64,000 nucleotides of DNA from Spirosoma foliorum (GTDB lineage: Bacteria > Bacteroidota > Bacteroidia > Cytophagales > Spirosomataceae), in assembly GCF_014117325.1 (NCBI RefSeq), contig NZ_CP059732.1:1860001-1924000 (forward strand), in the 5' to 3' direction. Made by a program: the position numbers and the translations under genes. The notes beneath the pieces are model-generated. The model saw only the letters and a program-made list of their open reading frames with translations, ran no database searches and was not told the DNA's origin. Positions 5,440 through 25,165 of this stretch are shown in pieces. Position 1 is the first letter of the stretch. Each line of letters begins with the position of its first letter.

Positions 5440-5482
5440 GTCCCGGCGAAATGTAGTCGTCAATATGGCTGGAGTATTTGAA

Positions 5483-5522
5483 AAAGCGGTAGTTAATTCT
5501 TTCGGAGGTTAACTACCGCTTT
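5483..5522. terminator. Perfect 14-bp stem hairpin after the hydrolase operon
   Basis: The arm at 5483-5496 (AAAGCGGTAGTTAA) and its exact complement at 5509-5522 enclose a 12-base loop. It lies 43 bases past the CocE-type stop codon and before the regulatory repeats of the next gene. This suits a terminator, although no long T-run follows. Confidence 0.7.
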
Positions 5523-5566
5523 AATCATAACTTGGAATGGGTCTTTCTGGAAGCACCGCCTATTGA

Positions 5567-5600
5567 CCCAAATCTGACAACTTTTGTCCCAAATGTGATA
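5567..5600 (+). promoter_or_regulatory. Pair of CCCAAAT direct repeats, 21-bp period
   Basis: CCCAAATCTGACA at 5567 and CCCAAATGTGATA at 5588 are spaced exactly 21 bp apart, two helical turns. The same arrangement occurs at 21465/21486 upstream of the other HisKA-type Reg_prop kinase. Tandem sites with this period are typical of LytTR or AraC-type regulators. They lie 82-115 bases upstream of the 5682 start. Confidence 0.5.
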
Positions 5601-5681
5601 GCTTCTCCAGGGATAGGCTGCTTATTTTGGCATGGCTAATACGAGTGTAGTGAATGGCCTTCCTCTTCTATACATACCGCT

Positions 5682-8600
5682 ATGCGTACCCCCCGTTTAT
5701 ACTTTCTCTTACTGCTAAATCTGACTATCCTATCCAGTGTGTTGGCTCAGCAACCCGCCCAACCCGTCGACCTGCCATCTCAACGCATCCGGTTCGAGCA
5801 CCTGACGGTGGCCGATGGCCTGCCCGAAAGCTCGGTCACCTGTATGATTCAGGACCATCTGGGATTTATTTGGATGGGCACTCAGGGTGGCCTGGCCCGT
5901 TATGATGGCACGCAAATTATTGCCTTTCAAGAAGATAGTAAAAATAAATATTCCTTTAGGGGAAGCAATGTTCAGTCCATCTATGAAGACCACAACGGTG
6001 ACATCTGGATTGGTTGTGAGCGACTGATCCGTTTTGAACGGGCTACCGGGCGATTTATCGAGTATCCGCAGAAAGCGCCTGAAGGCAATCGAAGCGCGAA
6101 CTACGTCGGATTGATCCATAAAGACCAGCGGGGCGATATCTGGACGATCACCGGTAATTACGGAGACAATCTCTTCCTACTGGACCGATTAAATCCTAAA
6201 ACTGCGACCTGGACCTATTTTCGCCATAACCCTGCCAATCCGCACAGTTTGGCGACGAATTCGATCTATCTGAGCAATACGAATAGCATTAATAATTTTG
6301 CTTTTTTAGAAGGCAGGTCGGGCACAATCTGGGTAACAACAACGGGGGACGAACGCATTCTACACCGCTTCGACCCGAAAATAAATGGGTTCAACCGCAT
6401 CACACCGAAGGCAAGCCCGGCTGTAGTGGCTGATTTCAAACGTATTACGGTCATGGCTGAGGATGGGCAGGGGCAGCTTTATGTATCCTCGTATAATCGG
6501 GGTAAAGGTTTATTTCTAGTAAACCGAACCGCCGGTGGTGCGGCATCCCGACCGCCCCAAACGTGGCAGGTGACGCAGTTCAAACACGACCCCCTAAATC
6601 CCTATTCGATTCGAGACGATTCCGTAACACGCGTACATCCAGACCGGGATGGAACCGTTTGGGTGCCCACAAGCCAGGGTCTGGATCGGCTGGATCCTAA
6701 AACCGGACGTTTCACGCATTTTGTATCGAAGCCCAACGACCCCAACAGCCCCAGTCCGGGCCTGCTTAAGTTTTTGTCCGAAACGCCCAACGGCGATCTG
6801 TGGTTCGCAACTACCGACGGGATGAATATGTATGACCGTCGTCGGCAATCGTTTGTGCGTTATCAGAAACGTAATGAGCCGGATGGACTAAAAGCCGGAG
6901 GGGAGATCATCTCGTTTCTGGTGGACCTAACTGGCTTATTCTGGGCGGGAAAGGTTGAGGATGGCGTGTATAAACAGAGCCGGGCGGTTAAGTTTTCGGC
7001 TATCACCAGTGAACCTGAAGTAACCCAACGGGGGATGCCAGGATCGGCACCAATCTCGTATATTTTTCGAATGTACGAGGCCCCCTCAGAGCCGGGTGTC
7101 ATCTGGCTGGGTACTGACGGCGGATTAGAGCGGCTGGATCGAAAAACAGGGCGCCGAACGACGTATAGCCACGACGATCGGAACAGCCGGTCTATTGGCA
7201 CAGGTTATGTCTTTGGCATGGCTGAGGATAAGCAGGGCCGGTTCTGGGTAGGAACGCAGGGAGGGGGCCTGAACCTATTCGACAGGAAGCGCGGGACGTT
7301 TACCCGGTTGGTGCACGATCCGGCCAATGCCAATAGCCTGATGAATGATAATATACGAGCGGTTTTCCCGGCTTCTGACGGTACGCTTTGGATTGGTACC
7401 TTTCAGGGACTGGATCATTATGACCCAGCTCGTCAGGCGTTTACCCACTATTACCAGGCCGACTCACTCTATACGCCTGAACTATACGCCCGCATCCAAT
7501 CGCTGGCCACAGCCCGGAAACCCGTGGCGGCTATCCGGCAACCAGGTAACAACACAAACCAAATGGTGGCTTTCAGCTTACACCAGCCGACCGATTTGCT
7601 GCTGGTGGTTGGTGGCGAATGGACGGCTGATACGAAGCGCGATTATGGCTGGCTGGAAGACGAACAAGGCAAGCGTATCTGGATTACCACCTACAAGCAG
7701 AGCGCGGGCGATGGCCCAGTGGGGCAAATCCGCAATCAGATAGACGTTATTCACCTGAAAGCAGGACGGTATCGGCTGCGGTATCGGTCGAATGACACGT
7801 ACGCCTACAGTCAGTGGAAAGTAGCTCCTCCCTATCACCCCCAGTTGTGGGGCATCCAATGCATTGCTCTTTCACCGTCCGAAGGTCAGGCTATGGCCCA
7901 GTTAGCCCGTAAACGGCAGTTCACCGGTCTAAATAGCACCTATGTTTTATCCCTGGCAGAAGATGCTCAGAAACGAATCTGGATTGGCACGTCGCTAAGC
8001 GGTGGTGTACAGTTGCTAGACCCCAATACAGGCCAATTTACAACCATCCTGACCGATAAAAGTGGCCTTTCCAGCGTCCAGTGTCTGTTAGCCGATACCC
8101 GACCGGGTTGTTTTTGGGTGGGTGATTTTACCCGTGGCCTATTTCTGATCAATGACAAGGGGCGGGTTCTGAAACACTTTACCCAGACTAACGGCCTGCC
8201 AAACAATACCGTGATTGGTGTTCATCGCGACAAACAAGGCATTTTATGGGTTGGCACGGGCAACGGATTAGTGCGGCTAGACCAGACCGCTGGACCGCCA
8301 AAAACCGATCAGATTCGCCACTTTACCCAGCGCAACGGTTTGAAGGGTTTATTCACGCCCATCTGGTTCTCCAGCACTGGTGAAGTCTATGCGGGCAGTG
8401 ATAGGGATGTCGTTGCGTTCTTCCCGGAGCAGGTTCAGGACGACCCGATACCGCCACCTATCGTCCTGACCGACCTGCTCATCAATGGCCAGCCCGCTAC
8501 GCTTGGCTCTGACGGCCAGCTACCCAGTCATATCTCGGTCACGAAAGAAATTACCCTGCCTCATGATCAAAGCGATCTTGCTTTCCAGTTTGCCGCGCTT

Positions 8601-9833
8601 AGCTATAACCGGGGTAGTGAATCGGAATATGCGTTTAAATTAAGCCCGATTGATACGGCCTGGGTGCCTTTAGGAGCCACTCGGCAGGCCCGCTTTCTGG
8701 ATTTACAGCCTGGCACCTACACCTTCCGCGTCAAAGCGGCCAACGCCGATGGGGTCTGGAATGAAGAAGGAACACGTATACAGATCACCATTTTACCGCC
8801 CTGGTGGCGAACCTGGTGGGCGTATTTTTTTTATGTACTGGTTTTTGCCATTCTGCTTCGTGCGTATATATCTTACCGTTCAAGAGCTTTGCGTCGGGAA
8901 AATCAGCTATTGGAAGAAAGGATTGCCCAGCGCACCAACGAAGTTCAGCAGCAGAAAGAAGAGATTGAGACCCAACGGGACTATCTGGAAGATACCCTCA
9001 CAGAACTCAAAAGCACCCAGACCCAACTCATCCAGAAAGAGAAACTCGCCAGCCTGGGTGAGTTAACGGCAGGTATTGCTCATGAGATTCAGAACCCGCT
9101 AAACTTCGTCAACAACTTCGCCGAAGTTTCCACCGAACTCATTGAAGAATTAAAAGAAGAGGTTCAAGCGGGTAACACCGATGAAGTTATGGCCATCGCC
9201 GACGACCTGACCCGCAACCTCCAGAAGATCAATCACCACGGTGGTCGGGCCAGCAGCATTGTCAAAGGCATGCTCGAACACAGCCGTACCGAATCGGGTG
9301 AGAAACGACCCACTGATCTTAACGCGCTGGCCGATGAATATCTCAAAATTGCCTATCACGGCCTGAGAGCCAATGATAAGAGCGGTTCGACGGGTCGATT
9401 TAACTGTGAGCTAGTGACTGATTTTGATTCGACCCTGGAACTGGTGGTAGTGGCTCCTCAGGAGATTGGACGGGTGCTGTTGAACCTCTACAACAATGCC
9501 TTTTACGCCGTACACCAACGACAGATCGCAGAGACAAGGCATGCCTTGTCTCTACCTGAAACCTACCAGCCAACGGTTTGGGTGAGTACCAAACGAATCA
9601 GTACTGGGATTGAGATACTGGTGCGTGACAACGGTACGGGCATTCCTGAATCGGTGAAGGCTAAGATCTTTCAACCTTTCTTCACCACAAAGCCTACTGG
9701 TGAGGGGACTGGATTGGGGCTGTCATTAAGCTATGATATCGTGACTAAAGGGCATGGCGGAATAATGGCAGTGGAGACTATGGAAGGAGAAGGAAGTGAG
9801 TTTATTATAAGACTACCCATCAATATTTCATAA
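5682..9833 (+). CDS. Reg_prop/Y_Y_Y sensor histidine kinase (kinase 1 of the array)
   Basis: A 1383-residue protein with a signal peptide ending VLAQ at about residue 23. A long periplasmic series of Reg_prop propeller repeats (recurring DxxGxxWxGT) runs to about residue 955. A Y_Y_Y domain (about 960-1035) and one membrane helix after WWRTWWAY (about 1043-1065) follow, then a coiled coil (QQQKEEIETQRDYLE), HisKA with phosphoacceptor H1134 in AHEIQNPLNFVNNF, and an ATPase domain with RVLLNLYNNAFYAV and TKPTGEGTGLGLSLSYD. Unlike classical hybrids of this sensor type, it has no receiver or AraC domain, so it must phosphorylate a separate partner. It is first in a tight operon; kinase 2 starts one base after its stop. 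A palindrome inserted in frame lies in the ATPase domain. Confidence 0.92.
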   Translation: MRTPRLYFLLLLNLTILSSVLAQQPAQPVDLPSQRIRFEHLTVADGLPESSVTCMIQDHLGFIWMGTQGGLARYDGTQIIAFQEDSKNKYSFRGSNVQSIYEDHNGDIWIGCERLIRFERATGRFIEYPQKAPEGNRSANYVGLIHKDQRGDIWTITGNYGDNLFLLDRLNPKTATWTYFRHNPANPHSLATNSIYLSNTNSINNFAFLEGRSGTIWVTTTGDERILHRFDPKINGFNRITPKASPAVVADFKRITVMAEDGQGQLYVSSYNRGKGLFLVNRTAGGAASRPPQTWQVTQFKHDPLNPYSIRDDSVTRVHPDRDGTVWVPTSQGLDRLDPKTGRFTHFVSKPNDPNSPSPGLLKFLSETPNGDLWFATTDGMNMYDRRRQSFVRYQKRNEPDGLKAGGEIISFLVDLTGLFWAGKVEDGVYKQSRAVKFSAITSEPEVTQRGMPGSAPISYIFRMYEAPSEPGVIWLGTDGGLERLDRKTGRRTTYSHDDRNSRSIGTGYVFGMAEDKQGRFWVGTQGGGLNLFDRKRGTFTRLVHDPANANSLMNDNIRAVFPASDGTLWIGTFQGLDHYDPARQAFTHYYQADSLYTPELYARIQSLATARKPVAAIRQPGNNTNQMVAFSLHQPTDLLLVVGGEWTADTKRDYGWLEDEQGKRIWITTYKQSAGDGPVGQIRNQIDVIHLKAGRYRLRYRSNDTYAYSQWKVAPPYHPQLWGIQCIALSPSEGQAMAQLARKRQFTGLNSTYVLSLAEDAQKRIWIGTSLSGGVQLLDPNTGQFTTILTDKSGLSSVQCLLADTRPGCFWVGDFTRGLFLINDKGRVLKHFTQTNGLPNNTVIGVHRDKQGILWVGTGNGLVRLDQTAGPPKTDQIRHFTQRNGLKGLFTPIWFSSTGEVYAGSDRDVVAFFPEQVQDDPIPPPIVLTDLLINGQPATLGSDGQLPSHISVTKEITLPHDQSDLAFQFAALSYNRGSESEYAFKLSPIDTAWVPLGATRQARFLDLQPGTYTFRVKAANADGVWNEEGTRIQITILPPWWRTWWAYFFYVLVFAILLRAYISYRSRALRRENQLLEERIAQRTNEVQQQKEEIETQRDYLEDTLTELKSTQTQLIQKEKLASLGELTAGIAHEIQNPLNFVNNFAEVSTELIEELKEEVQAGNTDEVMAIADDLTRNLQKINHHGGRASSIVKGMLEHSRTESGEKRPTDLNALADEYLKIAYHGLRANDKSGSTGRFNCELVTDFDSTLELVVVAPQEIGRVLLNLYNNAFYAVHQRQIAETRHALSLPETYQPTVWVSTKRISTGIEILVRDNGTGIPESVKAKIFQPFFTTKPTGEGTGLGLSLSYDIVTKGHGGIMAVETMEGEGSEFIIRLPINIS
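9530..9553. repeat. Perfect 24-bp palindrome inside the kinase 1 ATPase domain
   Basis: Bases 9530-9553 equal their own reverse complement (half-site AGAGACAAGGCA). They encode part of a short insert between the N box and the next strand that the sister kinases lack. It looks like a small REP-type element fixed in frame. Confidence 0.75.
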
Positions 9834-9834
9834 A

Positions 9835-12339
9835 ATGAAAACCTATCTCATCACGTTTTTGCTTGTTTTCTTTTGTTTGAGCTATCTACAAGCACAAACG
9901 GTTATCAATCCTTATACCGCCAAAATTGATAGTATTCAACAATTATTGACTAAACGCCCTACCACCGACACACTACGTGTCATTCAACTAAATGACTTGG
10001 CGCAAGTTTGCTTCAGGGATTTACAATTTAAACGTGGGCTGTTGGCCGCCAAAGAGGCCCGTGCTTTGGCCAAAAAACTCAATTTTGAGCAAGGAGAAGG
10101 CCTTTTTTTAATGACCATGAGAGACTTTAATGATGATTCTTTCTTTTGGTTTTACTATAACTTTAAGGCAACCTGGTTTTATGTCGATAGACATGAGCCC
10201 GTTTCTACCATCACCTTTTCCGTTGCGTCACCGGCTCAAACTAAAGAGCCTGAAAAGTCAATTAAAGAGTTAAAAGCTGCCTTAGCCTACTTTGAACGAC
10301 ATCCTGATGCAGAAATAACAGCCAATATTCTTCAGCTTATCAGTTACAATTACCGAAATATTGATAAAGAGCAGGAAAGTATACGTTATTTGGACAAGGC
10401 ATTTACGAAATTTCTGCAAGCCAGGCTTCCCATGAACGCCTATTACCTACTGGCTTTTAAAAGTCAATTGTTAGAGACAAAAGGTAAAAAACAGGAAGCC
10501 AAACTAGCCCAACAGCAAGTAAATAAGTTTATAGTTGCCAATCCGGATCATCAAGAAACGGCCTTGCTTTATACAGGGGTATCTAATTTTTATTATGCAA
10601 AAAAAGATGTACCCTTGGCTTTTGAGGCCAACGCTAAAGCGAATTTGCTACTGGAGCGATTAGGCGAACAGCACCTTCGAATCCTTATTCTTGAACGATT
10701 AGCCTCCGTCTATTTTTATAGGTTAGATATACCTAATAAGGCCCTTGATTTTTATCTCAAGGAAACGGCCCTGGCAGAAGCCATCCATGATCAAAAAAAT
10801 TTAGCCTGGATCTATCATAAAGTGGCTTTCACGCTGATCAGATTAAAACGGTTTGAGGAGGCTGCCCATTATGCCGGTAAAGCAAAAAAAATCATAGACA
10901 GCTCCCCTGAATCTCTCTCGAAGAAAAAGGATGTAGCACAGCACTACGATGCACTCGGGCAGATTCTGATGGGAAACCACAAATACCGGGAAGCTATATC
11001 GAATTTTAAGCAGGCACTCCAAATAGACAGCAGTTTTACCACCATTGCTATTTACTTCAACATGTATATTGCCCAGTGTTATCAAAAGATGGGCAACCTT
11101 AACGAGAGTATTTCCTATGGTTTAGTAAGTTATGAAGATGCCGTCGCCAATCCCAACTCTGATGGGAATTATGTTATACCAAGAGTGTGCCGATTGCTTT
11201 TTGAAAACTATGACAGCTTGGGTAACACTTCACAGGCCTACAACTATTTAAAGATTGAATATGGATATCGGAAAGCCATCGAAGAACAAAATGCGACCAA
11301 TCGTTTGGCGGAAATGGAAATTCAGTCAATTGTTCAGAAAAGCGAACAAGCGCGTTTGTTGAAAGAAAAAGAAAATCAGAACCAACGTTGGTGGTTATTC
11401 AGTATTGCCGTTGCCCTGTTTTCAGCAATAGTATTGGCTGCCGTATTTTATCGAAATAACCTGCACAAACAAAAGGCAAACACCTTGTTGTATCGGCAGA
11501 AAGAAGAAATCGACTGCCAACGGGACAAAGCCGAAAATGCCCTCACCGAACTCAAAACCACTCAGCAACAACTCATTCAGAAAGAAAAGCTGGCCAGCTT
11601 AGGGGAACTGACGGCGGGTATTGCCCATGAAATTCAGAATCCCCTGAACTTCGTCAACAACTTTTCGGAAGTTTCAGCCGAACTGATTGAAGAACAAAAA
11701 GAAGCCCTGGCTAAAGGAGATACGGAAGAAGCCAAAGCTATTGCTGAAGACCTTTCCAGCAATCTGCAAAAGATCAACCACCACGGCGGCCGGGCCAGCA
11801 GCATTGTCAAAGGCATGCTCGAACACTCCCGCACCGAATCGGGCGAGAAACGGCCCACTAATCTTAACGCGCTGGCCGATGAATATCTCAAGCTGGCTTA
11901 TCATGGCCTAAAGGCAAAGGAAAAAAGCTTTACTTGTGAGTTAGTGACCGAGTTTGATCCGGCCTTGGGGCTAGTCAAACTAACTCCTCAGGAGATTGGA
12001 CGGGTATTGTTAAACCTCTACAACAACGCATTCTACGCTGTTGATGAACGAAAAAAGCAGTTTGATCCTGACTATAAACCAACCGTTAAGGTTCGAACAA
12101 AGTGGGGGTCGGATCAGGTTGAGATTCGGGTTTCAGACAATGGCATCGGCATTCCAGATTCGGTGAAAGCCAAAATCTTTCAGCCCTTTTTTACCACTAA
12201 ACCCACGGGTGAAGGCACTGGATTGGGTCTTTCGCTGAGCTACGATATTATTACTAAAGGGCATGGGGGAATGCTGATAATGGACAGTCAACAGAATCAA
12301 GGCACCGAGTTCACCATTAGCTTACCTACTAAAGCTTAA
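9835..12339 (+). CDS. TPR sensor histidine kinase (kinase 2)
   Basis: An 834-residue protein with a signal peptide ending LQAQ (about residue 21). Tetratricopeptide-like helical repeats follow to about residue 500 (for example AISNFKQALQIDSSF), then a single membrane helix (about 518-538), a short coiled coil and the shared core: H598 in AHEIQNPLNFVNNF, HHGGRASSIVKGMLEHSR, the N box NLYNNAFYAV and the glycine-rich ATP lid. The TPR region would sit in the periplasm. The sensor half is visibly richer in A and T than the kinase half, which suggests a mosaic gene. It starts one base after kinase 1 stops, so translation is probably coupled. There is no receiver domain. Confidence 0.9.
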   Translation: MKTYLITFLLVFFCLSYLQAQTVINPYTAKIDSIQQLLTKRPTTDTLRVIQLNDLAQVCFRDLQFKRGLLAAKEARALAKKLNFEQGEGLFLMTMRDFNDDSFFWFYYNFKATWFYVDRHEPVSTITFSVASPAQTKEPEKSIKELKAALAYFERHPDAEITANILQLISYNYRNIDKEQESIRYLDKAFTKFLQARLPMNAYYLLAFKSQLLETKGKKQEAKLAQQQVNKFIVANPDHQETALLYTGVSNFYYAKKDVPLAFEANAKANLLLERLGEQHLRILILERLASVYFYRLDIPNKALDFYLKETALAEAIHDQKNLAWIYHKVAFTLIRLKRFEEAAHYAGKAKKIIDSSPESLSKKKDVAQHYDALGQILMGNHKYREAISNFKQALQIDSSFTTIAIYFNMYIAQCYQKMGNLNESISYGLVSYEDAVANPNSDGNYVIPRVCRLLFENYDSLGNTSQAYNYLKIEYGYRKAIEEQNATNRLAEMEIQSIVQKSEQARLLKEKENQNQRWWLFSIAVALFSAIVLAAVFYRNNLHKQKANTLLYRQKEEIDCQRDKAENALTELKTTQQQLIQKEKLASLGELTAGIAHEIQNPLNFVNNFSEVSAELIEEQKEALAKGDTEEAKAIAEDLSSNLQKINHHGGRASSIVKGMLEHSRTESGEKRPTNLNALADEYLKLAYHGLKAKEKSFTCELVTEFDPALGLVKLTPQEIGRVLLNLYNNAFYAVDERKKQFDPDYKPTVKVRTKWGSDQVEIRVSDNGIGIPDSVKAKIFQPFFTTKPTGEGTGLGLSLSYDIITKGHGGMLIMDSQQNQGTEFTISLPTKA

Positions 12340-12348
12340 CCGTTCGTG

Positions 12349-14508
12349 ATGAAATCAATTCTACTCATTGGTTGCCTTTCTCTGATCATAATGACTGCAT
12401 GTGCGCAGTCTGCTTTTCGTATCGATAGCTTACCACAAGATGGTATTTTGCTGGATAAAGGCTGGAAATGGCATTTAGGCGATAATTCTGATTGGGCCAA
12501 ACCCGATTTTGATGATGCCCGCTGGGATACACTCAACCCGACTCGGGAAATAGCCCTGCTGCACCAACTGCCTCAGCAGGGAATTGGTTGGCTTCGCATC
12601 CGCCTGCATGTGGTTCCGCTGCTTCGGGGGAAGATAGTATGTCTGAGTACTATTCAGGTTGGGGCTACTGAACTGTTTCTGAATGGAACACAAGTAGCGG
12701 AGGAGGGAAAAATAGGGGCCAGCAAAAGAATTCAAGAAGCCACATTTACCCCCGTTTCCTCCATTGTATTAGGGCCAGATAGTGTGCAGGTTATTGCCGT
12801 TCGTTATGCGTTTGCAACAGACAGACTTTTTAGCATGGATAGACTTAATTCAACGCCGTTCTTTGGTGTGAGACTTTGTTCAGTTGACTACGCAACGAAT
12901 CGTAGAGAATTGTTAAAAAGTGTTTATGTATTGGAATACACCCTGTTCGGTATTTTTCTGGTGTTGGGCGTTTTACAACTCATTTTCTTTGTCTCTTCAC
13001 CTACCCTGTTTGCCCATTTATATTTTGGCTTATTCCTCATCGCTCAGGGAGCTACTCACTTCCTTGATGCCTTCACCAAAGACGGTCCTCCTGCGTTTTT
13101 AGCCGTCACAAGAATTATTCTTTTCAACGACTATTTTAACATTGTCTTTTGTCTAGCGGTTACATTCTCCGCTATCTTCTACCTGCTGGGCGTTTACGTG
13201 TATTTTAACCAACCTAAACGAGCCTTATTTTTCGTTACCGCTACGCTCACCTTAGCGACCATACCCACTTATTTGTTTTCGTTTCTTGACGCTCCGGGGC
13301 CATTTATGTGGGTGCTGGGCTTTATTGTCCCCTGGACTGACATCCTGCGGGTGGGTTTGGTTGCTGCCAGACAGCAAAAAGCAGGGGCAAAGCTGTTTAG
13401 CTTCTCCCACTCTATTCTATTGACGGCCTTTATTCTATACACGTTAGTTGCCTTTGTGCCCATGGCGCGCAGCATTCTAGGCGATTTAGGAGACGATCTG
13501 TTTACGATTAGTTTTCTGGTTCTGGCCCTCACCATCACACTCCTGCTCACGCAGGAACGTGCTAATACGAATCGCTTACTCCAAAAACAGCTGATTGATT
13601 TAGAAATACTTTCTCAAAAAAATATCGCTCAGGAGCAGGAAAAACAGCAACTTTTAGCCAATCAAAACCAGCTTTTAGAGCACCAGGTTGAAGCCCGCAC
13701 CGCTGAACTAAAAGCCTCTCAAACCCAACTCATCCAGAAAGAGAAACTCGCTAGTTTGGGTGAACTAACAGCAGGCATCGCCCACGAGATTCAGAACCCC
13801 CTCAACTTCGTCAACAACTTCGCCGAAGTAAGTAACGAATTGGTCAGCGAGTTGCGCGAAGAAGAAGCCAAGCCCAACCGCGACGACGAGTTGATTGCTG
13901 ACCTTTTTAAGAATCTAAGCAGCAACCTCCAAAAGATCAATCACCACGGCGGCAGAGCCAGCAGTATTGTCAAAGGCATGCTGGAGCACAGCCGTACCAG
14001 TTCGGGTGACAAGCAGCCCACCAACCTCAACGTCCTGGCGGATGAATACTTCAAGATTGCCTATCATGGTCAACGGGCAAAAGAGAAAACTTTTGACTGT
14101 GAGTTAATCACCGATTTTGACGCCACGGTAGGAAAGGTTGACCTGATTCCTCAGGACATGGGTCGGGTGTTATTGAACCTCTACAACAATGCCTTTTATG
14201 CGGTGAATGAGAGGGTTAAACAACGTACTAATGCCAACTCCAACTATCAGCCCAGGATTGAAGTCAGTACACAACGTAGTGAATCGGACGTGATAATCCG
14301 GGTTAAGGACAACGGCACCGGCATCCCTGAGTCGGTGACCGACAAAATCTTCCAGCCCTTTTTTACCACCAAACCCACGGGCGAGGGCACAGGCTTAGGG
14401 CTTTCGCTGAGCTATGACATTATTACCAAAGGGCATGGCGGAACACTCACTATGGAAAGTATAGTGGGTGAAGGAACGGAGTTTATCATTCGATTCTCTA
14501 CGAACTAA
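12349..14508 (+). CDS. 7TMR-DISM sensor histidine kinase (kinase 3)
   Basis: I prefer the ATG at 12349 over the GTG one codon earlier; the spacing to the previous gene is 9 bases. The protein has about 719 residues, with a signal peptide ending MTACAQ. A periplasmic beta-sandwich of the 7TMR-DISMED2 type (GWLRIRLHVV, ELFLNGTQV; about residues 25-185) is followed by seven hydrophobic segments (about 195-400), a coiled coil and the shared kinase core with H479 in AHEIQNPLNFVNNF. The ATPase motifs RVLLNLYNNAFYAV and TKPTGEGTGLGLSLSYD are intact. DISMED2 domains are thought to bind carbohydrates or similar small ligands; the ligand here is unknown. It is the third gene of the array. Confidence 0.9.
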   Translation: MKSILLIGCLSLIIMTACAQSAFRIDSLPQDGILLDKGWKWHLGDNSDWAKPDFDDARWDTLNPTREIALLHQLPQQGIGWLRIRLHVVPLLRGKIVCLSTIQVGATELFLNGTQVAEEGKIGASKRIQEATFTPVSSIVLGPDSVQVIAVRYAFATDRLFSMDRLNSTPFFGVRLCSVDYATNRRELLKSVYVLEYTLFGIFLVLGVLQLIFFVSSPTLFAHLYFGLFLIAQGATHFLDAFTKDGPPAFLAVTRIILFNDYFNIVFCLAVTFSAIFYLLGVYVYFNQPKRALFFVTATLTLATIPTYLFSFLDAPGPFMWVLGFIVPWTDILRVGLVAARQQKAGAKLFSFSHSILLTAFILYTLVAFVPMARSILGDLGDDLFTISFLVLALTITLLLTQERANTNRLLQKQLIDLEILSQKNIAQEQEKQQLLANQNQLLEHQVEARTAELKASQTQLIQKEKLASLGELTAGIAHEIQNPLNFVNNFAEVSNELVSELREEEAKPNRDDELIADLFKNLSSNLQKINHHGGRASSIVKGMLEHSRTSSGDKQPTNLNVLADEYFKIAYHGQRAKEKTFDCELITDFDATVGKVDLIPQDMGRVLLNLYNNAFYAVNERVKQRTNANSNYQPRIEVSTQRSESDVIIRVKDNGTGIPESVTDKIFQPFFTTKPTGEGTGLGLSLSYDIITKGHGGTLTMESIVGEGTEFIIRFSTN

Positions 14509-14517
14509 TCATTTAGT

Positions 14518-16593
14518 ATGAAAAGTCATTATCTGCTTTTACTATTGATTTTTAGCCCAATACAGACGATAGCCCAATCCACTAGTCGGGCCATTGACAG
14601 TCTGCGGAGAGAACTCTCAGAAGCTAAAACGGATACTGCCCGCATGTGGCTCATGACCGATTTGAGCATTAAGTATTTTGAGCGAAATTTCGACTCGGCC
14701 AGATACTATGCGGAGCAGGGAATTCAACTGGCGCATACGCTTGGTCACTTACGGGGCGAATTGAAAAGCCGGGTTCTATTGGGCCAAAGTTATTCCACAC
14801 GCGACATTCCGCATAGTATCCGAATCTATCTGCAAGCCTTGCAATTGGCTCAGCAAACAAATCAGATTGATGATCAAGGTCAGTGTTACTACGGTATCGG
14901 AATCTTATATGGCTTTCTGGAAAATTCCCCGCTGGCAATTAACAACTTTAAACAGGCTCATACCATTGGACTTAAGGTACATGACCAGGAGTTGGCATCC
15001 TTTGCAAGTGCGGAAGTGGGAGGAGCTTACGGGAGGATGCATAAAGTCGACTCGGCCCGCTACTATCTGACGCTGAGTGAACAGGAATACCCACCCATAC
15101 GGCTTTATCCTTTTCAAGTACTTTATTGGGCGCGAGTAGAAAAGGGTACTAACCCCACCCAGGCCGCTCAATTGTATCGTCGTAGTATTCAGGTTTTCAA
15201 AGCACAAAACGAATTACGCGGTTTAGGCTATGCCTATGGTGCATATGGGGAGTTTTTGCAGCAGCATAATCAACCTGATTCCAGCCTTTTACTGGCGAAA
15301 GCCAGCCTGCAAATCAGCCTAAAGCTAATCAACTACAGGGCTATACTTACCAGCAGCCAACTGCTGACTAACCTATATCAGGACTTGAATCGACCCGACA
15401 GTGCTTATAAGTACCAAAGTATTATGATCATCGCCCGCGATAGTTTGTTTAGTCAGCAAAAATTTAATCAGATCCAGACCACGCTGATAGAGGAACAGCA
15501 GCGAGTACAGCAATTGCAGGACGAAAAAAGTCTGTTTGAAAGCCGGGTCAAAATCTATGGATTGCTAGGTATGGTCGCCGTCTTGTTGTTATTGGCTGGG
15601 GTGTTTTACCGGAATAACCGACAGAAGCAAAAGGCGAATGAAGAGTTGCAGACGCTCAATCAGGAGGTGCAGCAGCAGAAAGAAGAGATTGAATCCCAGC
15701 GGGACTATCTGGAAGAAACCCTCACAGAACTCAAAAGCACCCAGGATCAACTCATCCAGAAAGAGAAACTGGCCAGCCTGGGCGAACTGACAGCGGGTAT
15801 TGCTCATGAGATTCAAAATCCCTTGAACTTCGTCAACAACTTCTCAGAAGTTTCCACCGAACTCATTGAAGAATTAAAGGAAGAGGTTCAAGCGGGTAAT
15901 ATAGATGAAGTTATGGCTATAACCGATGACCTGACCAGCAACCTCCACAAAATTAACCACCACGGCGGTCGTGCGAGCAGCATTGTCAAGGGCATGCTCG
16001 AACATTCCCGTACTGAATCCGGCGAGCGACGACCTACGGATCTCAACGCCCTGGCCGATGAATACCTCAAGATCGCCTACCACGGCCTTAGGGCTAAGGA
16101 TAAATCCAATTTCAACTGCGAGTTAGTGAACAATTTTGACCCAAGTCTGGATCTGGTGAACGTAGGCCCTCAAGAGATTGGGCGGGTGCTGTTGAATTTG
16201 TACAACAATGCCTTTTACGCTGTTTCGGAAAAGCAGAAAACAGCTCCAGCCGAGTTCAAACCCACAGTCACGGTCAGTACGCGACTGCTGTCCCATAGCA
16301 GCCCTGAAGGGGCGTCATCGCTAACCCAGTCTTCCGGGTTGGGAACGACCGGGATGGGATCGGTCGAAGAGCGGATTGAAATTCGTGTGCGCGACAATGG
16401 CACAGGCATTCCAGAATCCGTAAAATCCAAGATTTTTCAGCCTTTTTTTACCACCAAACCCACGGGTGAAGGCACAGGATTGGGTCTCTCGTTGAGTTAC
16501 GACATTATCACTAAAGGGCATGGCGGAAGCATGGCTGTCGAGAGTCAGCCAGGGCAAGGAACTCTTTTTACCATTCAATTACCTATCCGATAG
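14518..16593 (+). CDS. TPR sensor histidine kinase (kinase 4)
   Basis: A 691-residue protein with a signal peptide ending TIAQS (about residue 20). Periplasmic TPR-like repeats occupy about residues 30-320, followed by a membrane helix (about 345-364, YGLLGMVAVLLLLAGVFY), a coiled coil and the common kinase core with H430. DNA and protein of the dimerisation region are almost the same as in kinase 1 (both have ELIEELKEEVQAGN). The ATPase domain carries an extra Ser/Gly-rich stretch of about 25 residues (codons about 16285-16370) before the DNGTGIPES motif, which the sister kinases lack. The start codon lies 9 bases after kinase 3 stops. It has no receiver domain. Confidence 0.9.
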   Translation: MKSHYLLLLLIFSPIQTIAQSTSRAIDSLRRELSEAKTDTARMWLMTDLSIKYFERNFDSARYYAEQGIQLAHTLGHLRGELKSRVLLGQSYSTRDIPHSIRIYLQALQLAQQTNQIDDQGQCYYGIGILYGFLENSPLAINNFKQAHTIGLKVHDQELASFASAEVGGAYGRMHKVDSARYYLTLSEQEYPPIRLYPFQVLYWARVEKGTNPTQAAQLYRRSIQVFKAQNELRGLGYAYGAYGEFLQQHNQPDSSLLLAKASLQISLKLINYRAILTSSQLLTNLYQDLNRPDSAYKYQSIMIIARDSLFSQQKFNQIQTTLIEEQQRVQQLQDEKSLFESRVKIYGLLGMVAVLLLLAGVFYRNNRQKQKANEELQTLNQEVQQQKEEIESQRDYLEETLTELKSTQDQLIQKEKLASLGELTAGIAHEIQNPLNFVNNFSEVSTELIEELKEEVQAGNIDEVMAITDDLTSNLHKINHHGGRASSIVKGMLEHSRTESGERRPTDLNALADEYLKIAYHGLRAKDKSNFNCELVNNFDPSLDLVNVGPQEIGRVLLNLYNNAFYAVSEKQKTAPAEFKPTVTVSTRLLSHSSPEGASSLTQSSGLGTTGMGSVEERIEIRVRDNGTGIPESVKSKIFQPFFTTKPTGEGTGLGLSLSYDIITKGHGGSMAVESQPGQGTLFTIQLPIR

Positions 16594-16604
16594 CTCCTTC
16601 TTTT

Positions 16605-18755
16605 ATGAAAACTCTGGTAGCTTTTTTACTCGTTAGTCTCTGCCTGACTCCCTGCTTGGCTCAGGATACAACCCTTACCCTGACTAATCGGATGTTTTCG
16701 TCGGATCAACTCATCAATCTATCAACAATGCGGGACTGGGTATTTAAAGCGGGGCAGAATCCAGGCTGGGCCAGTCCGGCACTGAACACCACAAGTTGGA
16801 CCAAACGCAGACCGAGTGATTTATCGATCAAAGATGCCGATAAGACCGGACGGGCTGAAGGTTGGTTTCGATGCCGCATTCGGCTGGATTCCACCTTTGA
16901 GGGCATGCAGTTAGGCGTATTCAGCTATTGCTGGGCGGCTGTTGACCTGTATGTCGATGGCCGGCTGATCACCTCGTTTGGTAACACAGGCGCCAACGGC
17001 AGACCCTATGCCGAGCACTACCCCTATTATCAAAAAGCGGCTCCATTTGACTTAACCACTGGACAGGATCACCTAATTGCGCTGCATGTTGTCGATTATG
17101 TCTCCCCCTTCTCGAAAAACCAATTGAAAGCTCAATTGGAGGGTGGAACCAGTAAAATCATCCGAATCGTTGGCCCTAAGACATTTAATTGGCTACACGT
17201 TAATGCCCGACTTTCTCCTGTTTACTCTGCCATATGGTTGACCGTATCGTTTCTGTTGGCCACCCTGTTCTGGCTACTGGTTTTTCAGAATTTGTATGAA
17301 AGGTCTTTAATCCGATTACTGGCTATCGGCGAAACTCTCCTTGTATTTGCTAGTATAGGGTTAATGATGGAGGTATTGGAACCTGCGTTTATCTATGAAG
17401 TAATCGTTTACCGTATATCAGGTGTATTATTGGGCGTCGCCATTGCTTTTCTACCCATCACATTACTACGTGTCTTAAACTATCCCTCATCCCGGCGAAT
17501 CGATAGCTTTATCATTGGAATTTCAGTGCTTGGAAGCAGCTTGACAGCGTATACCAATACTGGTTTACCTAGTTCCTTGGCTACTGTTTTGCAGTTCCTT
17601 TTTTTCTTTGCACTGTTGATATGGGCCAGGAAAAAAATAAAAGGGGCATTGTGGGCTATTGTAACAGGCGCTTTTCTGACGATTGCCTTTGCGCTGGGAT
17701 ATGCCATATTACAACTATCCAGTTTCTTTAATCCTCACCTTGGCTATGCAGCAACGGGTTTCTTTCTATCCCTTCCCCTTTCCTTTTTGGTTTATATCGC
17801 ACTACGTTTCAAAGAAATTGTAGCTGAAGATCGAGCGAAAGCAGTCGCCGTCGTACAGATAACCGAAGAGAAACGCCAACTCTTAGCTACCCAGAATCAG
17901 CGTTTGGAGCAGCAGGTTGAAACGCGCACGGCCCAACTGAACCAATCCCTCATCGACCTTCGCGCCACCCAAGCCCAACTTATTCAAAAAGAGAAACTGG
18001 CCAGCCTGGGCGAACTAACAGCAGGTGTAGCTCACGAGATTCAGAACCCCTTGAATTTCGTCAATAATTTCGCCGAAGTCAGTACCGAACTGATTGATGA
18101 GCTTAAGGAAGGACCATTCCAGAAACTGCCTGACTCTGAAAAAGGCTATGCGGACGAGATCCTGGGCGATCTCAGCAGCAATCTGCAAAAGATCAATCAT
18201 CACGGCGGACGAGCCAGCAGTATCGTCAAGGGCATGCTCGAACATAGCCGCACTGAATCCGGCGAGCGACGTCCTACGGATCTTAACGCCCTGGCTGATG
18301 AGTACCTCAAGATCGCTTATCACGGTTTGAGAGCCAAAGACAAGGACTTTAACGCTGACCTGAAAACGAACTTCATGACTGATTTGGGGCGCATCGAGGT
18401 GGTTCCCCAGGAGATTGGGCGGGTGCTGTTAAACCTGTACAACAACGCCTTCTATGCCGTAATCAAGAAACAGAAACTAGCCCCGTCAGGCTATCAACCA
18501 ACCGTCACGGTCAGCACCCATCAGTTTAATGGGCAACTACAGATCCGGGTTAGCGACAACGGTACGGGCATGCCCGAGTCGGTGAAAGCCAAGATTTTTC
18601 AGCCCTTTTTCACCACTAAACCCACAAGCGAAGGCACAGGGCTCGGGCTGAGTTTGAGTTATGACATTGTCACCAAAGGACACGGGGGCACCCTGACCGC
18701 CGAAAGTGAACCCAATCAGGGAACCGTTTTTACCATTGCCTTACCACTAACTTAA
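16605..18755 (+). CDS. 7TMR-DISM sensor histidine kinase (kinase 5)
   Basis: A 716-residue protein with a signal peptide ending PCLAQ (about residue 20). A DISMED2-like beta-sandwich (GWFRCRIRLD, VDLYVDGRLITSFG; about 25-195) is followed by seven membrane segments (about 205-400), a coiled coil and the shared core with H477 in AHEIQNPLNFVNNF. The ATP lid reads TKPTSEGTGLGLSLSYD, one Gly-to-Ser change relative to its sisters. The HisKA-ATPase linker (GPFQKLPDSEKGYADEILGD) resembles that of the frameshifted sixth kinase more than its operon neighbours, so the core lineages are mixed. It is the last kinase before the lone receiver, with 15 bases between them. Confidence 0.9.
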   Translation: MKTLVAFLLVSLCLTPCLAQDTTLTLTNRMFSSDQLINLSTMRDWVFKAGQNPGWASPALNTTSWTKRRPSDLSIKDADKTGRAEGWFRCRIRLDSTFEGMQLGVFSYCWAAVDLYVDGRLITSFGNTGANGRPYAEHYPYYQKAAPFDLTTGQDHLIALHVVDYVSPFSKNQLKAQLEGGTSKIIRIVGPKTFNWLHVNARLSPVYSAIWLTVSFLLATLFWLLVFQNLYERSLIRLLAIGETLLVFASIGLMMEVLEPAFIYEVIVYRISGVLLGVAIAFLPITLLRVLNYPSSRRIDSFIIGISVLGSSLTAYTNTGLPSSLATVLQFLFFFALLIWARKKIKGALWAIVTGAFLTIAFALGYAILQLSSFFNPHLGYAATGFFLSLPLSFLVYIALRFKEIVAEDRAKAVAVVQITEEKRQLLATQNQRLEQQVETRTAQLNQSLIDLRATQAQLIQKEKLASLGELTAGVAHEIQNPLNFVNNFAEVSTELIDELKEGPFQKLPDSEKGYADEILGDLSSNLQKINHHGGRASSIVKGMLEHSRTESGERRPTDLNALADEYLKIAYHGLRAKDKDFNADLKTNFMTDLGRIEVVPQEIGRVLLNLYNNAFYAVIKKQKLAPSGYQPTVTVSTHQFNGQLQIRVSDNGTGMPESVKAKIFQPFFTTKPTSEGTGLGLSLSYDIVTKGHGGTLTAESEPNQGTVFTIALPLT

Positions 18756-18770
18756 CTAACTCCATACACC

Positions 18771-19154
18771 ATGACCATTCTTGTCGTTGATGATGAGCTT
18801 GATATAAAAGACCTGTTTCAACAACGGTTTCGCCGGGAAATCCGCTCCCAGACGCTGCACTTTGCCTTTGCTCACTCAGCACAGCAGGCGATGGATTATC
18901 TGAACCAGCATGGTGGGAAAGATGTGTTGATTCTATCCGACATCAACATGCCCGGTATGAGTGGACTCGACCTGCTGCGTCGGGTGCGGTCTGACTATCC
19001 CCTGCCTCCTCCACCCGTAATTATGATGATCACGGCCTATGGCGATGCACCCAGTTACCAGCAGGCGATGACCGAAGGAGCCAATGATTTTCTGAGCAAA
19101 CCCATCGATTTTGAGCAGCTGAGAGCTAAACTCCAACCGTTTGTGGGTCAATAA
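18771..19154 (+). CDS. Stand-alone response regulator receiver (no output domain)
   Basis: The 127-residue protein is a single REC domain. The acidic pair D7-D8 follows strand 1, phosphoacceptor D57 lies in ILSDINMPG, the switch Thr lies in ITAYGD and the conserved Lys in FLSKPIDF. There is no DNA-binding or enzymatic domain, so it acts through protein contacts, as CheY- or Spo0F-like proteins do. It is the last gene of the five-kinase operon and the only receiver in it, making it the likely common target of those kinases (inference). Its sequence (DIKDLFQQRFRREI) is closest in this window to the first receiver of the hybrid encoded next (DLEDLFKQHFRRQI). Confidence 0.93.
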   Translation: MTILVVDDELDIKDLFQQRFRREIRSQTLHFAFAHSAQQAMDYLNQHGGKDVLILSDINMPGMSGLDLLRRVRSDYPLPPPPVIMMITAYGDAPSYQQAMTEGANDFLSKPIDFEQLRAKLQPFVGQ

Positions 19155-19238
19155 ATCAACCCGTCAATCAAACTGATCGATTCAGTTGCCAGCGATCCAC
19201 AGCCTCGTCCCCAACGCACGATCAATTAACGTTCGAGG

Positions 19239-19258
19239 CAGTCAAACCTTTTTGACTG
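19239..19258. terminator. Short hairpin after the kinase array
   Basis: CAGTCAAA at 19239-19246 pairs perfectly with TTTGACTG at 19251-19258 across a CCTT loop. It lies 85 bases after the lone receiver and before the promoter of the hybrid gene, so it plausibly ends the operon transcript. Confidence 0.55.
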
Positions 19259-19386
19259 GCTGTACTGAGATTACTGACTAATTAGTAGGTAATTTCTTGA
19301 TAATCAGTATTTATCAAAACGGTTACTAGATTGATTATTTAGTGATCTATTGGTCAATGAACTTCTGCAAGCCATTAAATTATGGC

Positions 19387-19416
19387 TTGCATTCCTGGGC
19401 AACGGAATTATTTTTG
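19387..19416 (+). promoter_or_regulatory. Bacteroidota-type promoter of the hybrid regulator
   Basis: TATTTTTG at 19409-19416 matches the -7 consensus TAnnTTTG exactly. TTG at 19387-19389 lies 19 bases upstream, the expected spacing for the -33 element. Transcription would start near 19424, just before the ATG at 19452. This also argues against any start codon upstream of the promoter. Confidence 0.65.
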
Positions 19417-19451
19417 TAGAGCTAACCACTCCACAAAATAACCTTCCCTGT

Positions 19452-21425
19452 ATGAAGACAAAAATTCTACTAGCCGATGATGAAAGCGACTTAGAAGACC
19501 TCTTCAAACAACATTTCCGACGCCAGATTCACAATCACACCTATGAGTTTATCTTCGTTCGCGATGGCCAGGAAGCCTTAACGGTTCTGGAGCAACAGCT
19601 CGATATTGATGTGGTTCTCAGCGACATCAATATGCCGGGTATGGACGGACTAACCTTGCTGGCCAAACTATCGGAAATTAATCCCATTATCCGCACCGTA
19701 ATCGTTACGGCCTATGGGGATATGAGTAATATCCGAACGGCCATGAACCGGGGGGCGTTTGACTTTATTACCAAACCTATCAACTTTAAGGATCTGGAGC
19801 TAACCCTCGAAAAAACAATTCGGTCGGCCAGTCAGCTCCGCGAAACGGTTGAACTCAAGGCCGTTGACGAGATGAAAACTCGTTTTTTTACCAATATCAC
19901 GCACGAACTCCGTACGCCCCTCACCTTAATTGTGTCGCCAGTCGACAACCTGCTGGAGACCCCGAATCTGCCAACGGCTTTCCAGAATCAGTTATCGACG
20001 GTGCAGCGTAACGCCCGGCAATTGCTGCGTCTGATTAACCAACTGCTGGACATCAACAAGCTTGAAGCCCAGCAAATGGATCTGGTCAATGAGGTGGGGG
20101 ACCTAGCCAGCTTTGTTGGCCAGATCGTAGATCTGTTTCGTCCATCGACTACCATTAAGCAGCTGGTCCTTACCTACCAGACCAATTTGCCAGCCGGAAA
20201 TTACCTCTTCGATGCAGGCAAATGGGAGAAGATCCTGTATAATTTACTGTCGAATGCCATCAAGTTTACTGAATCAGGCAGCATCAGCGTTAGCTTGACC
20301 CATACGCCAACGATGGCTCAACTGACCGTCAGCGATACAGGCATTGGTATTGCTGCGGACAAACTACCGCATATTTTCAACCGATTCTACCAGGTTGGGC
20401 CGCGTTCGGTCGATACGTCCCGTAGTCGCACCTACGAAGGAACCGGCATTGGTCTGGCGCTGGTTCATGAATTAACAGTAAGGCTAGGTGGAACGATCAC
20501 CGTACAAAGTCAATTGCCAGGGCTCAATGGGCATTCGGGAACCCATTTTCGGGTGGAAATCCCCCTTCAGCAGGCAGGTGCCATGACTCCGCAGAAAATA
20601 GAATCCCGGCTCTCGGTCGATGTACCAATAGTGCCCTCTGAATTGGCGCACCCAACAACGGCAACGCTGTCCGACAACACACCGCTGGTGTTGGTTGTAG
20701 AAGATAATGCAGAACTGCGGGAGTTTATCGTAGCCGAATTAGCGACGACCTACCGTATCCGTTCGGCCGCCAATGGCTACGAAGGCTGGATGGTCGCCAA
20801 AGAAGAATTGCCCGATGTAATCATTTCAGATTTGATGATGCCCCGCATGGATGGCTATGAACTTATCCATCAACTGAGAGCCGATCCGGCCACCGATCAT
20901 ATTGCAGTCATCCTGCTGACAGCCAGCGTTGAAGCCGACAGTCGACTAAAAGGGCTGGACCAGGGCGCGGATGAGTACCTGACCAAGCCGTTTCACCTGG
21001 GCGAGTTGCGCCTGCGACTGCGGAATTTGTTGACCCGTCAGGAAAAGTTGCGGGAAGAATATCGGCAACAATTTACCCGGACTGATCAATCAACTCCGTT
21101 GGTAACCATTCAGGATCAGTTTTTAGGTCGGTTGTATCAGTTGCTGGAGGAGCGATTGGATGATTCATCGCTAAGTGTGGAGTGGCTAGCCGATCAATTG
21201 GCGCTGAGTCGCAAGACGCTCTATATGAAAGTAAATAAACTGTTGCAGGTATCGCCCAATGATCTAATTCGTCAGTACCGACTTCGCAAAGCTATCGACC
21301 TGTTGCGTGCAGGTCATAATGCATCCGAAACGGCTTATATGGTGGGTTTTGAATCACCATCCTATTTCACGAGGGTCTTCAAGGAGTTTTACCAGCAAAC
21401 GCCTACCGATTATATTCGGCAATAG
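19452..21425 (+). CDS. Soluble hybrid kinase-regulator: REC-HisKA-ATPase-REC-AraC
   Basis: I chose the ATG at 19452 because an exact promoter lies between it and the in-frame TTG at 19350. The protein has about 657 residues and no signal peptide or membrane helix. Domain order: receiver 1 (1-125, D58 in VLSDINMPG), HisKA with H151 in ITHELRTPL, HATPase (about 255-375, DTGIGI and GTGIGLALVHEL), receiver 2 (about 412-530, D460 in ISDLMMPRMDG), and an AraC-type HTH (about 555-657, ending FESPSYFTRVFKEFYQ). Bacteroidota hybrid systems normally start with a periplasmic sensor; here a receiver takes that place. It could be switched by the upstream kinases and then bind DNA (inference). Confidence 0.92.
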   Translation: MKTKILLADDESDLEDLFKQHFRRQIHNHTYEFIFVRDGQEALTVLEQQLDIDVVLSDINMPGMDGLTLLAKLSEINPIIRTVIVTAYGDMSNIRTAMNRGAFDFITKPINFKDLELTLEKTIRSASQLRETVELKAVDEMKTRFFTNITHELRTPLTLIVSPVDNLLETPNLPTAFQNQLSTVQRNARQLLRLINQLLDINKLEAQQMDLVNEVGDLASFVGQIVDLFRPSTTIKQLVLTYQTNLPAGNYLFDAGKWEKILYNLLSNAIKFTESGSISVSLTHTPTMAQLTVSDTGIGIAADKLPHIFNRFYQVGPRSVDTSRSRTYEGTGIGLALVHELTVRLGGTITVQSQLPGLNGHSGTHFRVEIPLQQAGAMTPQKIESRLSVDVPIVPSELAHPTTATLSDNTPLVLVVEDNAELREFIVAELATTYRIRSAANGYEGWMVAKEELPDVIISDLMMPRMDGYELIHQLRADPATDHIAVILLTASVEADSRLKGLDQGADEYLTKPFHLGELRLRLRNLLTRQEKLREEYRQQFTRTDQSTPLVTIQDQFLGRLYQLLEERLDDSSLSVEWLADQLALSRKTLYMKVNKLLQVSPNDLIRQYRLRKAIDLLRAGHNASETAYMVGFESPSYFTRVFKEFYQQTPTDYIRQ

Positions 21426-24600: not shown

Positions 24601-25165
24601 GGAACACTCCCGTACAGAAACGGGCGAGAAACGGTTCATCGACATCAACGCCTTAGCCGATGAATATCTCAAAATTGCATACCAGGGACTTCGCGCTAAA
24701 GACAAAGTCGATTCAACCGGTCCCGCTCCGGCCGGTCCGCCGGAGCGGGACCGATTTAACTGCGAACTGAAAACAGACTTTGGCACTGAATTTGGAAAGG
24801 TCGAGGTGGTTCCTCAGGAAATTGGCCGGGTGCTCTTGAATCTGTACAGCAACGCGTTCTATGCCGTACGCGAAAAACAGAAAACAACGATGAATGGCTA
24901 TGAACCTATAGTAACTGTAAAGACCACCCAGGTTAATCAGTATATTCAGATTCGGGTAATTGACAACGGTACAGGCATTTCCGATTCAATCAAAGCCAAA
25001 ATTTTCCATCCCTTTTTTACCACCAAGCCCACGGGCGAAGGCACTGGGTTGGGATTATCAATCTCCTATGATATTGTAACCAAGGGGCATCAGGGTTTAT
25101 TGCTCGTGGAGAGTCAGGAAGGAGTGGGGACTGAGTTTATCATTCAATTGCCAACCGCTCACTGA
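21637..25165 (+). pseudogene. Reg_prop/Y_Y_Y sensor histidine kinase split by a single-base frameshift (kinase 6)
   Basis: Two overlapping frames together make one kinase of about 1175 residues. The first (21637-22230) has the signal sequence and early Reg_prop repeats and stops after IPVEGSR. The second is open well before 22219 and continues with GADDRVWSIQEDRFGTLWVG. Removing one G from the GGG at 22219-22221 restores a smooth join, VEGADDRVWS. The rest has Reg_prop repeats, a Y_Y_Y domain, a membrane helix after WWRTWWAY (about 830-850 of the repaired protein) and the array-type core with H920 in AHEIQNPLNFVNNF. As written, no complete kinase is made. The cause may be real gene decay or a sequencing error. 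A palindrome is embedded in the HisKA-ATPase linker. Confidence 0.85.
24718..24753. repeat. GC-rich 15-bp-stem palindrome inside the kinase 6 linker
   Basis: CGGTCCCGCTCCGGC at 24718-24732 and its exact complement at 24739-24753 flank a 6-base loop. The 36 bases are exactly 12 codons and encode most of an insert (GPAPAGPPERDR) that the sister kinases lack at this position. Confidence 0.75.

Follow-up and report, generated by a model that had tools for sequence, protein, structure and literature searches.

How do several sensor histidine kinases (HKs) encoded side by side deliver their signals when the regulator that directly follows them is a receiver without an output domain? This question is raised by a locus in a 64,000-nucleotide stretch of the Spirosoma foliorum genome (contig NZ_CP059732.1, positions 1,860,001 to 1,924,000 of the forward strand; hereafter the window), where five kinase genes, K1 to K5, lead into the gene for a lone receiver (REC). 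Textbook two-component pathways are insulated one-to-one pairs, and a preliminary description of this DNA had read the locus as an operon on whose single receiver many inputs converge. The comparisons reported here make it fairly probable that the kinases would instead converge on a receiver pair, consisting of the lone REC and the N-terminal REC (N-REC) of a hybrid regulator encoded downstream, with the hybrid as the gene-regulatory output.

Five kinases with different sensors share one core

The operon of K1 to K5 and the lone REC is real. From K1 to K5, the genes are spaced by 1, 6, 9, and 11 bases, the second gap being 9 if K3 starts at its next ATG, and K5 lies 15 bases ahead of the lone REC. 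By Pfam, HATPase_c is clear in all five kinases, and HisKA (PF00512) is above its cut-off in K1, K2, and K5 and just below it in K3 and K4 (26.8 and 26.6 bits versus the 26.9 needed); the Pfam matches of K1 to K5 include neither HisKA_2 or HWE nor Response_reg. The cores are 67-83% identical in pairwise comparison, and the helix C-terminal to the phosphorylated histidine is almost invariant across them. The sensor parts are Reg_prop and Y_Y_Y in K1 and TPR in K2 (clear) and K4 (TPR_12, 29.8 against a cut-off of 30.1), while K3 and K5 both have an N-terminal part followed by six to seven hydrophobic segments, for which the match to 7TMR-DISM (PF07695) is 13.3 bits in K3 (cut-off 29) and absent in K5. 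The preliminary description therefore holds for five kinases leading into a lone REC (its gaps of 1, 9, 9, 11, and 15 change only at the second, which is 6 with the GTG start of K3), for kinases that lack a receiver of their own and are nearly alike in their kinase regions, and for the Reg_prop and TPR sensors, that of K4 being borderline; the 7TMR-DISM type that it gave twice is weakly supported.

On the forward strand of positions 5000-25500, the Bacteroidota-type -7 promoter consensus TAnnTTTG occurs at three sites, 6293 (within K1), 19409 (before the hybrid), and 23374 (within K6, described below), and at none from K2 through the lone REC. A long hairpin ahead of K1 (5440-5681; z -2.2, with equal folding in 3 of 200 shuffles) is weak evidence that the transcription unit begins at K1. 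Scans for sigma-70 promoters (22 versus 23.3 in shuffles) and terminators (22 versus 21.8) found no excess over shuffled sequence and are therefore uninformative on the limits of the operon, and Rfam gave no match at the gathering score in positions 5000-26000.

A receiver-effector follows the lone receiver

The statement that the array ends in an output-less receiver was not confirmed: the next same-strand gene, 297 bases beyond the lone REC, encodes a hybrid with a paralogous N-REC (44% identity to the lone REC), and after it comes K6, a further kinase that shares the K1-K5 core and is split by an apparent frameshift near 22145-22230. From residue 121 or 130 onward, the hybrid shares 42% identity (557-559 positions) with the C-terminal portions of two Reg_prop-Y_Y_Y-HisKA-HATPase-REC-AraC proteins encoded in this genome, and hydropathy reveals no membrane segment in it (highest 19-residue value, 1.27). 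From this identity and the lack of a membrane segment, the hybrid looks like a hybrid two-component regulator (HTCS) in which the sensor half and membrane segment were exchanged for a receiver, and its input should then come from kinases in trans.

The stretch between the two genes folds far more strongly than its shuffles (z -6.06) and contains an imperfect palindrome of 30 bases (19267-19296) as well as a promoter-like TTG-N19-TATTTTTG at 19387-19416, ahead of the hybrid. It is possibly an operator or an RNA element. The idea that a mobile repeat had split an older, overlapping gene pair here was not supported, as the stretch has one copy in the genome and 11 other genomes gave only a 28-base match (E 0.008).

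Both subfamilies across the genome

There are a total of 12 kinases with this core in the 8.85 Mb genome (K4 accounts for two of the 13 matching stretches), and their clustering is not a matter of chance, because six of them sit within these 20 kb. The receiver subfamily has a sharp boundary, with five domains at E ≤ 1.7e-25 and the next receiver at 3.6e-12. These five are two lone RECs, the N-RECs of two hybrids, and the N-REC of a protein joining a receiver to a class III cyclase (REC-cyclase), an enzyme type that produces a cyclic nucleotide messenger. The second lone REC, at C1:6861468, is 62% identical to that of the operon, and the second hybrid lies at C1:238104. The N-REC of the REC-cyclase is at C1:6861103, its gene overlaps that of the second lone REC by 4 bases, and the protein is the only PF00211 match in the genome, with further ones held by other genomes of the order. 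Upstream of the second lone REC, past three open reading frames (ORFs), two of them on the same strand, are two core kinases plus a protein of 1071 residues that has HEAT repeats and a cyclic nucleoside monophosphate (cNMP)-binding domain. Elsewhere in the genome (L031:3658-5500), an ORF remnant with two small pieces of the core and the remnant of a third REC-HK-REC-AraC gene lie beside an intact core kinase.

Specificity residues and the origin of the array

All 12 kinases are identical at positions H+1 to H+9, H+11, H+12, H+15, and H+16 relative to the phosphorylated histidine, and conservation is 0.94 from H-12 to H+17 versus 0.74 in the remaining core. Such positions set the specificity of kinases for receivers in HisKA systems. 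On the receiver side, a helix-1 motif, L..Q.[FY]R..I, is found in 81 of 99 lone RECs, 73 of 76 cyclase-linked RECs, and 15 of 18 hybrid N-RECs, and in none of the controls (0/18 second RECs of the same hybrids, 0/12 RECs in loci L001-L008, and 0/22 weaker RECs in other loci). Between lone RECs and their partners (76 pairs), identity along successive segments is 50% (helix 1), 36%, 55% (around the active site), 43%, and 41%, which is suggestive but not proof. The alpha4-beta5-alpha5 face differs, with K118 in 92% of the lone RECs and, in the effector RECs, T120 in 100% and K123 in 98-100%.

A tree of 231 cores groups the six window kinases with 11 from a related genome (G003) in one clade (support 0.82), inside which the Reg_prop kinase K1 and the TPR kinase K4 are sisters (support 0.91); sensors were therefore probably exchanged on a shared core within the lineage. 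At loci with several kinases, the closest relative of a kinase is found at that same locus for 56 of 167, and in-place duplication therefore accounts for only part of the picture.

Recurrence of the layout in other genomes

For a census of lone-receiver loci, contigs were scanned with the two lone RECs as queries, and the best 80 of 470 confirmed stretches were combined with the window, the other loci of its genome, and loci from the genus and the order. After four duplicates were dropped, this gave 109 distinct lone receivers, defined by a receiver-model score of at least 90 bits in an ORF of fewer than 215 residues, with a same-strand gene within 600 bases counted as the downstream partner. 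The flanks stop at about 10 kb, which makes all array sizes lower bounds; the sample leans toward Spirosoma, and twenty regions were added late, picked for holding arrays or pairs.

The partner is a REC-cyclase at 74 of the 109 loci, a REC-HK-REC-AraC hybrid at 9 (the window included), and a REC-HK-REC protein at 1; the others are followed by a receiver protein with an unmodelled remainder (5), a core kinase (7), a cNMP-binding protein (1), something else (6), or no gene (6). The lone REC is thus usually half of a pair, with a REC-cyclase in 74 loci and a REC-HK-REC protein with or without AraC in 10, and the notion of one phosphoreceiver without output is not supported. Lone REC and effector genes overlap in many loci, and a cNMP-binding protein is found near some of the clusters of kinase, lone REC, and REC-cyclase.

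Directly upstream of the lone REC, there are no contiguous core kinases in 31 loci, one in 48, two in 19, three in 6, four in 3, and five in 2, the last being the window and a locus of Hymenobacter artigasi (L040). The layout proposed as a search target, at least three kinases beside a lone REC, therefore recurs (11/109 loci), and it was present in 9 of 102 rows before the array-picked regions were added (duplicates included; lone-REC loci found via the receiver, plus the window). By the receiver model, none of the 261 core-bearing ORFs of the census loci has a receiver, and only 1 of 247 core matches is followed by a C-terminal tail of more than 90 residues.

The closest architecture, in another genus of the same family (L152), is a single run of four kinases, a lone REC, and a REC-HK-REC-AraC hybrid with gaps of 13, 13, 11, 13, and -4, where all four kinases have HAMP domains, versus the mixed sensors of the window. 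Lone REC and hybrid also stand together with one kinase directly upstream (L114, L116, and L117), with a kinase downstream (L115), or with no core kinase directly upstream (L118, L119, and L128). At L168, the hybrid comes first and four 7TMR-DISM kinases follow; the 20 kb contain no lone REC, although one with a REC-cyclase is present elsewhere in that genome, and a hybrid by itself can thus accompany an array. Another genome (G018) has kinases, lone REC, and hybrid and no PF00211 match, so the receiver pair can have the hybrid as its sole output. Farther afield, two alphaproteobacterial loci (L086 and L100) contain a similar kinase core, a lone REC, and a REC-cyclase, and two Scytonema loci (L075 and L083) contain a lone REC followed by a 727-residue receiver protein.

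Two other layouts were observed. In the Algoriphagus type (L069, L081, and L162), kinases and RECs partly alternate (kinase-REC-kinase-REC), lone RECs are nearer one per kinase, and the REC-cyclase comes last. Along about 60 kb of one region (L155-L158; G076:C9:690000-760000), there are ten matches to the kinase core, two of which fall in ORFs of more than 2000 residues, and a lone REC and REC-cyclase come at the end.

Co-occurrence of kinases and receivers

Among 80 genomes of the order, 20 contain both subfamilies, 4 only the receivers, 1 only the kinase, and 55 neither (Fisher p 6e-14, uncorrected for relatedness). The set is what remained of 88 genomes once G000, G017, G027, and five small ones that gave no receiver match were taken out; thresholds were 1e-19 for receivers and 1e-60 for kinases, with up to 49 and 32 first-look candidates, respectively, scored per genome. 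Four families (f5, f8, f10, and f15) have some genomes with both subfamilies and others with neither. Within Spirosoma, receivers are present in 32 of 36 genomes. Both subfamilies were found in 12 of 14 chosen genomes of the genus that were searched for kinases, and the other two (G012 and G013), which have no receivers, also have no kinase; the remaining two genomes without receivers, both less than 83% complete, were outside the kinase search. Comparison thus supports many inputs facing a few receivers (12 kinases for 5 receivers in one genome, co-occurrence, and arrays elsewhere), and not the single receiver of the earlier claim.

Proposed mechanism and alternatives

We propose that the locus encodes a many-to-few two-component network in which five kinases, or six with K6, would feed different sensory inputs through one nearly invariant dimerization and phosphotransfer core. 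The kinases are predicted to phosphorylate the lone REC and the N-REC of the hybrid through the same docking helix, and phosphorylation of the N-REC should switch the internal kinase, second receiver, and AraC DNA binding of the hybrid, which would serve as the output. The lone REC would most likely be a shared phosphate buffer or adaptor that sets the amount of signal at the effector, and since HE-x-x-N, which we take to be a phosphatase motif, is kept after the kinase histidine, the kinases may also dephosphorylate it. This chain of phosphotransfer, buffering, and switching is what we infer from the sequences, and the job of the lone REC, whether as buffer, relay, or binding partner, is its least certain step. 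As the 12 kinases have common docking residues, cross-talk with the cyclase cluster is also predicted.

Several observations weigh against this mechanism. The helix-1 motif was defined on the families in which it is counted, so that only the control zeros inform, and helix-1 identity is modestly above that of most segments and below that of the active site, which shared descent alone could explain. The 297-base gap and the promoter-like site suggest that the hybrid is transcribed separately at this locus, and the operon would not be an insulated unit if all 12 kinases share docking residues. The lone REC closest to that of the window (L112 in G003, 76% identity) lies between kinases with no adjoining hybrid, the hybrid being about 34 kb off, and 31 of the 109 census loci lack a core kinase directly upstream of the lone REC. 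Finally, the co-occurrence has exceptions in both directions: 4 of the 80 genomes have the receiver and no kinase over the threshold, all of them in family f2 and with weak matches, and one (G059) has the kinase without the receiver.

The lone REC could also be the hub of a phosphorelay, as Spo0F and MrrA are, passing phosphate to a histidine of an HPt protein or of the internal kinase of the hybrid and from there to the output. Its best natural match among solved structures is Spo0F (6ifh, E 1e-13), with one designed protein scoring higher, the hybrid has a HisKA domain of its own, and PMC5964349 describes MrrA as loaded by at least six kinases and handing its phosphate to PhyK. The genome has seven HPt matches, two of them in short ORFs of 140 and 146 amino acids; however, none of these matches, HPt being the phosphotransferase type that the search covered, is near the operon. 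Pfam shows no histidine domain in the common partner, the REC-cyclase, for which a relay step is therefore unnecessary, and at L168 and L166, both in genomes with lone RECs elsewhere, the stretch has an array next to a hybrid and no lone REC. On this evidence, we regard a relay as unlikely.

Class III cyclases act as dimers, and the lone REC could work by protein binding, for example as a heterodimer with the effector N-REC that controls an effector required to dimerize. This would accord with a helix-1 motif common to both kinds of receiver, their systematic alpha4-beta5-alpha5 differences, and their overlapping genes; however, direct evidence is lacking, and differing output faces argue equally for no pairing, which leaves binding quite unlikely in our judgment. 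That the array is a by-product of duplication, in which the kinases diverge in sensor and partner, most of them serve other regulators, and the neighborhood of the lone REC means little, is a reading to which we give very little weight. The single clade of six window kinases and 11 from a related genome does indicate expansion at the level of the lineage, and four core kinases of the S. foliorum genome (L028-L031) have no adjoining lone REC, but the phosphotransfer residues stayed frozen in all 12 kinases while the rest of the core drifted, and the kinase and REC families occur together.

Convergence on the receiver pair, the reading that we prefer, would give the family a wider meaning. It can be regarded as a natural repeated experiment in which sensors multiply and change on a fixed phosphotransfer surface while the output differs by locus, a cyclase in some and a gene regulator in others, and two questions can be put to a direct test with it: whether kinases encoded together lack insulation by design, and what role a lone receiver plays beside a receiver-effector. 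As the REC-cyclase is the only PF00211 match of its genome, the data also suggest that some of these bacteria use class III cyclase signalling as an output of two-component systems. More tentatively, and with more doubt than conviction, we put forward the idea of a plug-in sensing module of Bacteroidota, in which lineage-specific sensor arrays on a frozen core would drive a conserved receiver pair, and any sensor, wherever encoded, would feed the same few outputs (here two lone receivers, two AraC hybrids, and the only PF00211 cyclase). Paralogous pathways would no longer be insulated from each other, outputs would have been swapped between cyclase and gene switch with inputs unchanged, and the lone receiver would represent a new type of component: a shared buffer for the signal, encoded alongside its effector.

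Features of the locus and neighboring genes

The features of the locus and of the second cluster in the genome are collected in Table 1. Beyond K6, a Reg_prop-like kinase with a different, HisKA_2-looking core, judged from its translation alone, is encoded on the opposite strand (25508-28876). Among the best 25 matches per protein, no NCBIfam model scored above its cut-off for K2, K5, the lone REC, the hybrid, the REC-cyclase, or the cNMP-binding protein.

Table 1. Coordinates of the kinase array, the receiver pair, and the second cluster
Feature	Position	Strand	Remarks
K1, Reg_prop/Y_Y_Y sensor histidine kinase	5682..9833	+	Core from 9027
K2, TPR sensor histidine kinase	9835..12339	+	Core from 11572
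K3, sensor histidine kinase with 7TM-like region (weak 7TMR-DISM)	12346..14508	+	GTG start or ATG 12349; core from 13729
K4, TPR sensor histidine kinase	14518..16593	+	TPR just under cut-off; core from 15751
K5, sensor histidine kinase with multi-transmembrane region	16605..18755	+	No Pfam sensor domain; core from 17979
Lone receiver (REC), 127 residues	18771..19154	+	Conserved D57 at the phospho-acceptor place
Intergenic stretch	19155..19451	+	297 bases, single copy in genome, strongly structured
Hybrid effector REC-HisKA-HATPase-REC-HTH_AraC	19452..21425	+	Pfam; N-terminal REC is a paralog of the lone REC
K6, Reg_prop/Y_Y_Y kinase, same core, frameshifted	21637..25165	+	ORFs 21637-22230 and 22145-25165; core from 24341
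Second cluster: HEAT/cNMP protein, two core kinases, lone REC, REC-cyclase	L026:4417-15789 = C1:6860416-6871788

Comparison with known systems

That many kinases act on a lone receiver is a principle already known from MrrA and from Spo0F. In the Bacillus phosphorelay, several scattered kinases converge on the lone receiver Spo0F, and the steps through Spo0B, a separate phosphotransferase, follow; linkage of phosphotransferase and receiver is not required. We know of no receiver-effector twin in that system, nor of a single tandem array of the kinases that serve MrrA/SdrG. The likeness to the Bacillus phosphorelay lies in five differently sensing kinases and in Spo0F as the best natural structure match of the lone REC; membership tests did not assign the lone receiver to Spo0F. 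PMC8749435 places the five sporulation kinases KinA to KinE on one pathway. MrrA/SdrG of Alphaproteobacteria is a single-domain receiver at the knot of a bow-tie network, and PMC5964349 gives its donor kinases as mostly HWE/HisKA2, with one HisKA, and its receiver motif as PFxFATG(G/Y). The lone REC was rejected as a member of this group, as it does not contain PFxFATG(G/Y), its beta4-alpha4 stretch being MMITAYGD, conserved in the family, and the window kinases are of the HisKA rather than the HWE/HisKA2 type. They also stand in tandem, and the lone receiver is paired with a receiver-effector gene.

HTCSs are hybrid two-component regulators of Bacteroidota (PMC3404733), and the hybrid resembles them in its HisKA-HATPase-REC-AraC half, as the identity to the two proteins of its own genome shows, but has an N-terminal Response_reg in place of the Reg_prop/Y_Y_Y sensor and membrane segment. 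Multikinase networks of the GacS type are similar in joining several kinases to one output, and there the kinases also act on each other. In the titles and opening lines of abstracts of the open-licence papers that the searches listed, neither the tandem array, nor the receiver pair, nor an HTCS with receiver input is named, and no paper on clusters of kinase, lone REC, and REC-class III cyclase was found in the open-licence literature; the preliminary claim that no system of this form has been described is thus borne out, within those titles and abstract openings, for the gene arrangement, and fails for convergence on a lone receiver, given MrrA. The window at 5682-21425 holds core kinases adjacent to a lone REC of the subfamily, with a REC-effector downstream, and the cyclase clusters have the same core, receiver subfamily, and gene order, also with tandem kinases, and differ in having a cyclase rather than an AraC hybrid as the output.

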